DNA from: an uncultured Pelagibacteraceae bacterium
GTDB lineage: Bacteria > Pseudomonadota > Alphaproteobacteria > Pelagibacterales > Pelagibacteraceae
Assembly (NCBI GenBank): GCA_902524235.1
Contig: CABZCF010000007.1
Location: 1-52,622, forward strand
Length of the DNA: 52,622 bases
Reading direction: 5' to 3'
The notes beneath the pieces were generated by a model, which made no database searches, was not told the DNA's origin, and saw only the letters and a list, made by a program, of their open reading frames with translations. Below are positions 19,353 to 22,812 of this stretch, in pieces. How positions within the stretch are numbered: the first letter of the stretch is position 1; the number at the start of each line of letters is the position of its first letter. A program made the position numbers and the translations under genes.

Positions 19353-21134
19353 TTGAATAAATATCGCACTCATAATTGTGGAGAATTAACCTTACAAAAT
19401 AAAAATACTGAGGTATCCTTATCAGGGTGGGTAAATAAAAAGCGTGATCATGGAAATTTATTATTTATAGATTTAAGAGATAACTACGGAGTAACTCAAT
19501 GTGTAGTAGAGAAAAATAATAAAAATTTTTCCGAACTAGAAAAATTGCACTTAGAAAGTGTCATAAAGGTTGTAGGCAAAGTCGTTGAAAGATCAAAAGA
19601 AACTATAAATCCAGATATTAAAACTGGAGCAATCGAGATTTACTTAAAAAACTATTCACTTTTAGGCAAATGCAAAGAGTTGCCAATGCCCGTATTTAGT
19701 GATCAAGAGTATTCTGAAGAAATAAGATTGAAATATAGATTTTTAGATCTAAGAAGAAAAAAAATTCACGAGAATATTATTTTAAGGTCTAAAGTAATCT
19801 CATTTATAAGAAATAAAATGGTTAGTTTAGGATTTCTTGAGTATCAAACACCAATTTTGACATCATCAAGCCCTGAGGGAGCAAGAGATTTCCTTGTTCC
19901 AAGTAGATTAAATCCTGGTAAATTCTACGCCTTACCTCAGGCGCCACAGCAATTTAAACAATTAATAATGGTATCAGGTTTTGATAAATATTTTCAGATT
20001 GCACCATGTTTTAGAGATGAGGATGCAAGAGCAGACAGAAGTCCAGGAGAGTTTTATCAACTTGATATTGAGATGTCCTTTGTTGAACAAGAGGATATCT
20101 TCAGAATAATTGAGGATCTAATGACTGATGTTTTTAAAACCTTCTCAAAAAATGAACTATTATTTAAGAAATTTCCACAAATACCATATAATGAGGCTAT
20201 GTTAAAGTACGGGACAGATAAACCCGACTTAAGAAATCCTTTAATAATTAAAGATGTCACTAAAATTTTTACTAGAGAGGATGTTAAGTTCGAAATTTTT
20301 AAGAAATTAGTATCTAAAGGAAATATTGTAAGATGTATAGTTACTAAAAATACAACAAACAAACCTCGAAGTTTTTTTGATAGTATTGATAGATGGGCTA
20401 AAAATGAGGGTTCATCTGGTCTTGCTTATTTTTCAATTTTTAAAGAAGAAAAAGTATATGCGAAGGGACCAGTTGGAAAGTTTTTTACAGAAGCATCTTT
20501 AAAAGAAATAATGCAAATTACTGATGCTGAAGTCGGAGATAGTATATTTTTCTCTTGCGGTAATAAAACAGATGTTGAAAAACTACTTTCAATTGCTAGA
20601 GATAAAATAGCAAAAGAACTAAATATTATCAATCAAGATAGCTTTGCCTTTTGTTGGATCGTTGATTATCCAATGTTTGAATTAGATGAAAAAACAAACC
20701 AAATTAAGTTTAGTCATAATCCTTTTTCAATGCCGCAAGGTAAAATTGAAGAAATAAACCTCAAAGATCCATTAAATATTAAAGCTTTTCAATATGATAT
20801 AGTCTGTAATGGTATAGAGCTATCTTCTGGAGCAATTAGAAATCATATTCCAAGCTTAATGTATAAGCTTTTTTCTATCGCAGGTTACAATAAATTAGAT
20901 GTAGATGAAAAATTTAGTGGAATGATAAATGCCTTAAGCTTTGGTGCTCCTCCACATGGTGGAATTGCACCAGGCATTGATAGACTTATAATGCTATTAG
21001 CTAATGAGAAAAATATTAGAGAAGTAACAATGTTTCCAATGAATCAAAATGCTCAGGATCTAATGATGAACGCACCATCAGATATATCAGATTCACAATT
21101 AGACGAGTTGAGATTAAAAATACTTAAAAAGTAA
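19353..21134 (+). CDS. aspS: Aspartyl-tRNA synthetase
   Basis: Class II synthetase charging tRNA with aspartate. The N-terminal OB-fold anticodon domain (about residues 1-110) is followed by the catalytic core with QAPQQFKQLIM, the motif 2 block FRDEDARADRSPGEFYQLD, a bacterial insertion domain, and motif 3 GGIAPGIDRLIMLL. At 593 residues this is the bacterial-type long form. It may be non-discriminating (Asp and Asn) if the genome lacks AsnRS, but the window does not show that. It begins with TTG at 19353, 6 bases after hdaA. Confidence 0.96.
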   Translation: MNKYRTHNCGELTLQNKNTEVSLSGWVNKKRDHGNLLFIDLRDNYGVTQCVVEKNNKNFSELEKLHLESVIKVVGKVVERSKETINPDIKTGAIEIYLKNYSLLGKCKELPMPVFSDQEYSEEIRLKYRFLDLRRKKIHENIILRSKVISFIRNKMVSLGFLEYQTPILTSSSPEGARDFLVPSRLNPGKFYALPQAPQQFKQLIMVSGFDKYFQIAPCFRDEDARADRSPGEFYQLDIEMSFVEQEDIFRIIEDLMTDVFKTFSKNELLFKKFPQIPYNEAMLKYGTDKPDLRNPLIIKDVTKIFTREDVKFEIFKKLVSKGNIVRCIVTKNTTNKPRSFFDSIDRWAKNEGSSGLAYFSIFKEEKVYAKGPVGKFFTEASLKEIMQITDAEVGDSIFFSCGNKTDVEKLLSIARDKIAKELNIINQDSFAFCWIVDYPMFELDEKTNQIKFSHNPFSMPQGKIEEINLKDPLNIKAFQYDIVCNGIELSSGAIRNHIPSLMYKLFSIAGYNKLDVDEKFSGMINALSFGAPPHGGIAPGIDRLIMLLANEKNIREVTMFPMNQNAQDLMMNAPSDISDSQLDELRLKILKK

Positions 21135-21140
21135 CTTCAT

Positions 21141-21983
21141 TTATTTTTTACCTTTTAAATTCAATTTAATATCAGATAGATCCACAAGTTTTTTTTTGTA
21201 GTTATTTCTAACAAAACCTTTGCTTGTAATATCTTTTACTATTTTTAATATTTGTTGCTGATCCTCATTTTCATCTGAATTATCTTTTTCAGTGTTTTTA
21301 TCAACATTTGTAACAGCAATTGAAGGGGTATGGGCTAAGTCCTCGCGATTTAAATATGAAATTGCCAATTCCCTGAAAATATAATCTAATATTGAACTTG
21401 CACTTAAAATCCTATCATTCCCGTAAACTTTACCCGATGGTTCAAATTTTGTATCAACATAAGCGTTAACGTACTCGTCTAGGGGCACTCCATACTGTAA
21501 ACCTAAAGATATGGCTATTGCAAAATTGTTCATTAACGCTTTAACAAGTTCTCCCTCTTTACTTGTATCAATAAATATTTCACCAATTTTTCCGTCTTCG
21601 TATTCTCCTGTATGTAAATATACCTTATGATTGTCTATGCTTGCTTTTTGTATATATCCTTTTCTTCTATCTGGCATACTAAACCTTTTACTTATCCCAT
21701 CTGACACTTTACTAATAAGATTTTGTTTATTTAAATTATGTTTAATGCTCGACTGAGCGTTAGAATTATTATTTATTTCTAATTTTTTTTGAACTAATTC
21801 GTTATTTTTATTAATATTTTCGAGATTTTTTGTCTTTCTATTATCCAACTTAATATCCAATACCTCAAATTTACCATCTTCTCTTTGATCAAGATTGTCT
21901 AAATCTTTTTCACTTAAATTATCAACGTAATGCTTAACTTTGAAACTGCAGGTATAATAACTTTCAACTAAATATTTTGCCAT
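21141..21983 (-). CDS. Stand-alone protein resembling the C-terminal region of B12-dependent ribonucleotide reductase
   Basis: The 280-residue protein has a unique N-terminal 100 residues that are charged and Asn/Lys-rich. The segment at about 103-220 closely resembles the C-terminal part of class II (NrdJ) reductases: [47 protein letters not shown] and [12 protein letters not shown]. The catalytic barrel is absent and the only Cys is residue 12, so it cannot be a reductase by itself. It resembles split NrdJb-type subunits, but its role (assembly, regulation or nucleotide binding) is unknown. Strong SD AAAGGAAAT precedes the ATG. It is convergent with aspS and divergent from the NDUFA12-like gene. 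Confidence 0.7.
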
Positions 21984-22052: not shown

Positions 22053-22070
22053 AATTGTATTTATACAATT
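22053..22070. promoter_or_regulatory. Perfect 18-bp palindrome, candidate operator
   Basis: In the 102-base spacer between the NrdJ-like gene and the divergent NDUFA12-like gene lies AATTGTAT-TT-ATACAATT, two perfect 8-base arms separated by 2 bases. The size and symmetry fit a dimeric repressor site or a short hairpin. It does not match the NrdR box pattern or an FNR/CRP site. It lies 16 bases before the plus-strand start codon and about 70 bases before the minus-strand one. A/T palindromes arise often by chance in this genome, so the call is tentative. Confidence 0.35.
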
Positions 22071-22085
22071 TTAAATTGAAAAAAA

Positions 22086-22445
22086 ATGTTAACTATATTT
22101 AAAGAAATTTTTATTTGGTGGAATCGCCAAACTCTCGGAACTAGAATCAATACTTTAATTTTTGGTAAACTAGTTGGAACAGATCAATTAGGTAATAAAT
22201 ATTACACAGATAAAAGTGGGAGAAGGTGGGTAATTTATAAAAAAGAAACAGATGCTTCAAACATTCCTCAGGAGTGGTATTCTTGGATTCATTTTACGAA
22301 AAATCAAATAGAGAAAGTAAATAAATTTAGTAAATATGATTGGCAAAAAGAACATAAGCCAAATTTGACAGGTACGGACAAAGCATATCATCCAGAAAAT
22401 AGTAAAAATGCAACCAAAAAAAAATATAATACTTGGAAAAACTAA
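22086..22445 (+). CDS. NDUFA12-like accessory subunit of NADH:ubiquinone oxidoreductase
   Basis: Homologue of the mitochondrial complex I 17.2 kDa subunit (B17.2/NDUFA12), a supernumerary subunit shared by alphaproteobacteria and mitochondria. It shows the family features: TWIWWNRQT-like start (FIWWNRQTLGTRINT), GTDQLGNKYY, GRRWVIYKKETDASNIPQEWYSWIHF, and the C-terminal basic HKPNLTGT region. The length of 119 residues is normal. It overlaps the DUF2155 gene by 38 bases; this pair is conserved in alphaproteobacteria. The main nuo operon is not in the window. Confidence 0.9.
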   Translation: MLTIFKEIFIWWNRQTLGTRINTLIFGKLVGTDQLGNKYYTDKSGRRWVIYKKETDASNIPQEWYSWIHFTKNQIEKVNKFSKYDWQKEHKPNLTGTDKAYHPENSKNATKKKYNTWKN

Positions 22446-22812
22446 ATTTTTTTTGTTTTATTATTTTTTATTTTTCTTTCTTCAAATAAGCTCGTATTCA
22501 AATCAAACTTTATTTGGCAAATTTGTAGAAATAAAAATTTTGGATAAGGTAAATTCAAAAAACTCTACTTTAGTCCTGAAAATTGGCGAAGAACAAAAAT
22601 TTAAAAATCTAAGCATTAAAGCTTTAAAATGTAAAAATTCAGAATTTGACGATAATCCAGAAATAACAGCATATTTACAAGTTAAAGATAATAATATTAA
22701 GAATAAAGATAAAGTTTTTACTTTTAATGGATGGACGTTTGCATCGAGTCCGACTTTAAATCCATTTGATCATCCAATATATGATATTTGGTTAAAAAAA
22801 TGTTTTAATTAA
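22408..22812 (+). CDS. DUF2155 family exported protein
   Basis: The 134-residue protein starts with a positively charged stretch and a hydrophobic segment (about residues 12-30) consistent with a signal peptide. The mature part shows VEIKILDKVNSKNSTLVLKIGE, LSIKALKC, and FNGWTFASSPTLNPFDHPIYDIWLKKC, the signature of DUF2155. Two cysteines, one in ALKC and one at LKKC near the end, may form a disulfide in the periplasm. Function is unknown. Its place behind the NDUFA12-like gene is conserved. Convergent with accC with 4 bases of overlap. Confidence 0.85.
   Translation: MQPKKNIILGKTKFFLFYYFLFFFLQISSYSNQTLFGKFVEIKILDKVNSKNSTLVLKIGEEQKFKNLSIKALKCKNSEFDDNPEITAYLQVKDNNIKNKDKVFTFNGWTFASSPTLNPFDHPIYDIWLKKCFN

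Follow-up and report, generated by a model that had tools for sequence, protein, structure and literature searches.

Why would a cell keep, as a protein of its own, the tail end of an enzyme that it no longer has? The question is raised by a gene in a 52,622-nucleotide stretch of DNA (the window) from an uncultured bacterium of the Pelagibacteraceae, contig CABZCF010000007.1, one of the SAR11 bacteria, a group that counts among the ocean's most abundant cells. By the open-frame reading of the window, positions 21141-21983 of the minus strand encode, from an ATG start, a 280-residue protein whose recognisable part is the TSCPD domain of NrdJ, the vitamin B12-dependent ribonucleotide reductase. 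Here, we conclude that this gene is almost certainly nrdJ itself, reduced in place to an in-situ remnant in the Pelagibacteraceae, an origin shown by sequence and by locus. That the tail of a lost enzyme is so well preserved as its own protein suggests that it does a job unrelated to the chemistry of that enzyme.

The kinship with NrdJ is readily seen. Pfam places TSCPD (PF12637) at residues 118-207 (E 2.1e-10; 41.2 bits, above the curated cut-off of 22.8), and residues 61-268 align with positions 935-1132 of the 1222 in the NCBIfam NrdJ model NF005736 (E 1.3e-66), at a score of 225 bits that is far below the cut-off of 1737 for the model. These matches, with a domain at about residues 99-222, bear out a first-pass annotation, made by a model from the sequence alone, that had likened residues 103-220 or so to the C-terminal part of NrdJ. 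Identity to 20 aligned NrdJ C-terminal parts is 43-53%, and the motif behind the domain, TSKGFVR, is common to NrdJ. What made NrdJ an enzyme is missing: Pfam matched TSCPD only, the catalytic barrel PF02867 with its NPC finger-loop motif is absent, and so are the six-cysteine C-terminal tail and, in the alignment with NrdJ, the zinc ribbon and its cysteines. The single cysteine stands at position 12. A genome scan for relatives confirmed 583 loci, the best 80 of which, used here as the named SAR11 loci, all belong to Pelagibacteraceae, Pelagibacter or Pelagibacterales and match over nearly their full length at 58-75% identity. In all 81 SAR11 copies (these 80 and the window) Cys12 is the sole cysteine and occupies the same column. 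The annotation was also right in seeing neither reductase core nor redox cysteines. The parts of the gene are as follows.

21141-21983, minus strand: stand-alone TSCPD gene, nrdJ remnant, 280 residues (Pfam and NCBIfam matches, locus)
21819-21983, minus strand: SAR11-only N-terminal domain, residues 1-55 (alignment and model)
21948-21950, minus strand: codon of Cys12, the only cysteine (kept in 81 of 81 copies)
21690-21818, minus strand: variable linker, residues 56-98, under weak selection (alignment; ratio of nonsynonymous to synonymous change, dN/dS, 0.44)
21318-21689, minus strand: TSCPD domain, residues 99-222, putatively IscU-like (Pfam, NCBIfam, alignment and model)
21144-21317, minus strand: C-terminal tail, residues 223-280, with the motif TSKGFVR (alignment)

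Does the protein work beside an NrdJ encoded elsewhere? The annotation had offered a split accessory subunit as one option and had suggested looking for a full nrdJ in the rest of the genome. None was found: in the window genome (1.02 Mb, 85% complete) there is one TSCPD match and one barrel match, the latter a 651-residue NrdA frame on another contig with a single NrdB beside it. The TSCPD gene thus adjoins no reductase gene, as had been noted from the window. No NrdJ barrel occurs in any of the 21 genomes of the window's family (f1) that were searched, and incompleteness is an unlikely cause, because all 11 single-contig genomes among them lack it; the split subunit therefore falls away. One NrdA frame of about 650 residues is present in 20 of the 21, the remaining genome (G409) giving no barrel match.

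Across the order, 186 of 197 genomes match the 280-residue protein, in two different forms. In f1 the match is found in 138 of 144 genomes and is each time a free-standing open frame of 269-307 residues without stops. Five of the other six also lack a match to aspS, the neighbouring gene, and the sixth holds only aspS residues 1-270, so the locus seems to be unassembled in these six. In a second family (f159), 48 of 53 genomes match, and among the 12 matches listed 11 lie in frames of 1180-1216 residues and one in a frame of 908; in the four f159 genomes tested, NrdJ is present and NrdA absent. The order is thus split, in the genomes tested, between NrdAB in f1 and only the B12-type NrdJ in f159, and the need for B12 in DNA synthesis should divide it along the same line. 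One full-length f159 NrdJ (L210) has an insert at residues 290-363 that resembles the N-terminal domain of YebC/TACO1, at scores below cut-off (NCBIfam E 2.7e-07, 30.6 bits against 196; Pfam 25.6 bits against 36).

The origin of the gene is best read from its place in the chromosome, between the following neighbours.

22086-22445, plus strand: NDUFA12 by Pfam (a subunit of complex I), the divergent neighbour, which other families also have beside nrdJ
19353-21134, plus strand: presumed aspS, convergent neighbour, common to the nrdJ locus of f159

All 80 named SAR11 loci have NDUFA12 in divergent orientation, and in 79 of them aspS is close by and convergent. In f159 it is the full NrdJ that sits between NDUFA12 and aspS (L209, L210 and L212). 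Active NrdJ has NDUFA12 nearby in L213 (family f24), L214, L220, L221 and L222 as well; in the stretches fetched for L215-L219 and L223, NDUFA12 was not found. Because a full NrdJ occupies the same locus in another family of the order, the gene is an in-situ remnant and not a paralogue; the annotation's idea of a paralogue put to another use stands in its second half only. In a tree of 69 rows, limited to those that carry the LQ[YH]G motif and have sufficient flank, f1 forms one clade (100/99) inside a larger group (99/91) that also holds f159 NrdJ, f64, f146 and one more NrdJ; the columns are few, and many forks stay open. The gene names aspS, accC, accB, aroQ and thiG are presumed. A DUF2155 gene (window 22408-22812) overlaps the end of NDUFA12, a pair seen in most f1 loci inspected and absent in L225.

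The gene is under strong purifying selection and seems not to be a pseudogene. In a comparison with L140, the nearest genome that was found, where the protein is 94% identical, dN/dS comes to 0.048 over the whole gene, 0.058 for the N-terminal domain and 0.02 for the tail, and the TSCPD domain shows zero nonsynonymous change in its 124 codons at a dS of 0.83; the neighbouring genes, with accC and aspS taken in part, give values of 0.01 to 0.12. That the gene might be a decaying remnant without function is therefore scarcely credible: it is indeed a fragment of a lost gene, and yet its dN/dS is that low and its frame is free of stops in every matching f1 genome.

The N-terminal domain is the part that NrdJ does not account for. 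Its invariant residues in 28 aligned rows are M1, K3, E7, Y10, C12, K15, H18, D36, G37, R49 and T51, and a model of it alone (predicted local distance difference test, pLDDT, 87.5) shows a short helix between two long strands. The predicted fold has no significant match in the PDB (best Foldseek E 2.0), and no convincing relative outside the family was found in 289 genomes of the class with the single sequence or in 398 genomes of the phylum with a profile, in line with the unique N-terminus noted at first pass. Four profile matches outside the family (E 0.004-0.1) were inspected and judged to be chance. As a leftover of the NrdJ N-terminus the domain was also considered and rejected, a profile against 14 NrdJ proteins reaching E 0.33 at best.

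What, then, is the kept domain? Passages of PMC9669993 give an IscU homology for the C-termini of class II reductases and, within them, report no role for the IscU-like part. We infer that TSCPD is this published domain, an equation of our own, as the passages do not use the name TSCPD. The TSCPD region is modelled mostly at pLDDT above 90, and VIA ranks IscU first for it (Z 5.4, in a range under 8 that by VIA's own warning may reflect a common arrangement), with other IscU, SufU and CsdE rows standing among unrelated folds. Foldseek gave nothing significant (best E 0.16), and a PDB sequence search returned nothing at E up to 1, as single sequence or as profile. The fold comparison thus agrees with the IscU-like assignment of PMC9669993, and is no proof by itself. 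The region has no cysteine in the 81 SAR11 copies or in the 14 active NrdJ examined, and hence no cysteine ligands, so that electron transport and an Fe-S cluster held on cysteines are both excluded. In one NrdJ, according to passages of PMC5704485, the C-terminal cysteine-rich domain (CRD) takes part in oligomer formation with dATP/dGTP and in electron transfer through its cysteines. Since the electron path is lost and the folded part kept, selection should act on binding or oligomerisation of a non-redox kind.

Is SAR11 alone in keeping this part of a lost NrdJ? In a sample of one class, which we take to be the Alphaproteobacteria, 182 of 289 genomes match, most of them inside a full NrdJ, and 32 of the genomes were searched a second time. 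Shortened or apparently dead forms of NrdJ were found in at least 11 genomes of seven families (three genomes in f1, two each in f9 and f27, and one each in f100, f64, f146 and f151). Some short frames in the sample (e.g. G064, G099, G173 and G200) may be contig ends, and G276 is a cut active NrdJ, judged by its redox tail. Outside f1 and f9, 'dead' means that the N[PLV]C motif is missing and that barrel matches are weak or missing, a call from sequence that stays putative. NDUFA12 adjoins the relics in f9, f27, f100, f64 and f146.

The f9 relic, of 278 residues, has kept a four-cysteine ribbon and lost the terminal redox cysteines, and both f9 relic genomes hold an NrdA-type frame. Between NDUFA12 and DUF2155, the two f9 loci (L115 3472-4370 and L116 5680-6578) have two consecutive similar proteins of about 150 residues, presumably MlaD-like. 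In f27, which we guess to be the Acetobacteraceae from the 99 genera in its 100 sampled genomes (the family codes are not matchable to names), a match is present in 90 of 100 genomes; most of the frames have about 500-600 residues, some are short and a few long (801-1071 residues). Ten of the 11 f27 loci used were read as frames: none has the finger-loop motif, and the complete ones end without a zinc ribbon. In the nine used for conservation no column of cysteines reaches 90%, and TSCPD scores 0.74 against 0.46 for the core remnant. At several f27 loci (e.g. L234, L237 and L241) such a pseudo-NrdJ of about 500-600 residues is followed by a gene that we take to be RidA-like. The relics of f100, f64, f146 and f151 likewise lack the finger-loop motif. 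Among 14 further relic-bearing genomes, 12 hold an NrdA-like frame. The type of NrdA was tried as a marker of relic-bearing genomes and dropped, no difference being seen among the 24 loci chosen. Phages were also considered as a link and rejected: among 50,697 phage records 7 give a match, which covers 39-52% of the query; in the five that are annotated the match coincides with a gene for a class II or B12-dependent reductase, and the other two have no annotation.

Together, these observations can be drawn into one proposal. The cell went over to the class I reductase NrdAB, and nrdJ lost its barrel and cysteine tail in place. What stayed is the TSCPD domain with the short motif that follows it, now preceded by a new N-terminal domain of 55 residues that has one invariant cysteine. 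The TSCPD domain may fold and self-associate as a binding module, and its job in NrdJ would have been independent of the barrel and could thus have outlived the reductase; the SAR11 N-terminal domain probably gives a new partner or dimer contact. Because several NrdAB families kept the TSCPD domain, a role already present in NrdJ is favoured. We put at about even chances that the protein retains a non-catalytic binding role older than the reductase swap. The wider claim is one we would hold as readily as doubt: that the IscU-like TSCPD domain has a second, reductase-independent function, that alphaproteobacteria going from NrdJ to NrdAB have repeatedly kept a dead 'pseudo-NrdJ', and that SAR11 has its most reduced form, as a core gene.

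Several observations weigh against this proposal. No match at all is found in 107 of the 289 class genomes, and 82 of these belong to the 234 with a completeness of 90% or more; the role is therefore dispensable in many lineages. The conservation contrast seen in f27 is also found in the 14 active NrdJ (TSCPD 0.84, core 0.66), and the fold match is weak. Some relics could still serve a reductase: in f27, G534 holds a relic and a full NrdJ (1212 residues) with no separate NrdA, and G495 a relic and a 927-residue barrel frame as its only reductase match; the relic genomes G278, G183 and G548 have a further barrel gene besides NrdA. Lastly, a test on 122 columns does not reject one common origin for the relics of f1, f9 and f27 (approximately unbiased test, p 0.139; pairs 0.168-0.339), although another family of f1's own order has active NrdJ, and hence we claim no number of independent origins. 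The barrel frames of G495 (L244) and G030 (L243), of about 925 residues with barrel E of about 1e-201 and 1e-210, are of another reductase type; two small class genomes rated 100% complete (G038 and G047) have no reductase barrel match.

What else might the protein do? Our main rival, which we regard as unlikely and which the annotation had offered as a regulator of nucleotide reduction, is a trans-acting regulator of the class I enzyme, where the free domain would bind NrdA or NrdB and drive nucleotide-dependent oligomers, as it does in NrdJ, in place of a missing ATP-cone. In the window genome, the only one to which this result applies, neither NrdA nor NrdB has a Pfam ATP-cone match; in one NrdJ the CRD alters oligomers and effector affinity (passages of PMC5704485); and NrdA-type frames accompany the relic in most genomes, as counted above for f1, f9 and the 14 further ones. 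However, genomes that have no TSCPD match (G010, G012, G014, G018 and G049) also hold NrdA frames of this kind, judged by length and by where the NLC motif lies, G534 and G495 carry a relic without such an NrdA, the SAR11 gene lies away from nrdAB, and, NrdAB being a different reductase, the interaction would need to arise anew.

A new function specific to SAR11, residing mainly in the N-terminal domain with Cys12 and using TSCPD as a scaffold only, strikes us as rather improbable: the invariant residues and low dN/dS of that domain speak for it, but the TSCPD domain is even more conserved, and f9, f27, f100, f64, f146 and f151 keep TSCPD without the SAR11 N-terminal domain. An assembly or sulfur/Fe-S helper, e.g. 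for complex I, is very improbable. Such a role would draw on the way an IscU/SufE-like fold docks on assembly machinery, on the IscU, SufU and CsdE chains among the VIA rows and on NDUFA12 next door in every named SAR11 locus; yet unrelated folds stand in the same rows, the neighbour comes along with the nrdJ locus, and the cysteine ligands are missing in SAR11 proteins and active NrdJ alike.

The retained domain matters beyond this locus. Genomes that keep TSCPD after the loss of the enzyme separate the job of the domain from catalysis, and its role becomes testable in a small protein. The gene is also an annotation trap: the NCBIfam models that match it best are named 'vitamin B12-dependent ribonucleotide reductase', with scores that fall far short of the cut-offs. 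It must not be taken as a sign that SAR11 depends on B12. A further feature lies upstream.

22053-22070, no strand: inverted repeat without mismatch (8+2+8) between the two divergent genes, at about chance level

This palindrome, AATTGTATTTATACAATT, had been assigned to the gene's own promoter region. It is real, but lies nearer to the start of NDUFA12 (22086) than to that of the TSCPD gene (21983). Of 80 intergenic stretches, 19 have a best arm of at least 8, and in single-base shuffles the share is 18.6%, so that the palindrome is not clearly above chance.

How does the protein compare with what is known? Literature searches among open-licence PMC papers found no description of a stand-alone TSCPD gene. 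The full-length NrdJ of f159 (NF005736) stands for its ancestral gene, at the same locus, although that enzyme has about 1200 residues with barrel, finger-loop motif and redox tail. To the CRD of NrdJ (IscU-like part and zinc finger) it is homologous in TSCPD and the following motif, and it has the chromosomal place of the f159 nrdJ; it differs in being free of the barrel, in lacking the zinc finger and the six tail cysteines, and in its new N-terminal domain. With proteins of the IscU/SufU/SufE fold it shares a weak predicted structural likeness (VIA Z up to 5.4), without their cysteine ligands or a sequence match in the PDB search. NrdJb of the split NrdJa+NrdJb enzymes, as described in passages of PMC5704485 and PMC9669993, is likewise a separate gene for the C-terminal part, but the SAR11 protein has no zinc ribbon, and no NrdJ barrel partner was found for it in the 21 f1 genomes searched. 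The best reading of the gene is that of an exapted remnant, as opposed to a split subunit or a paralogue.
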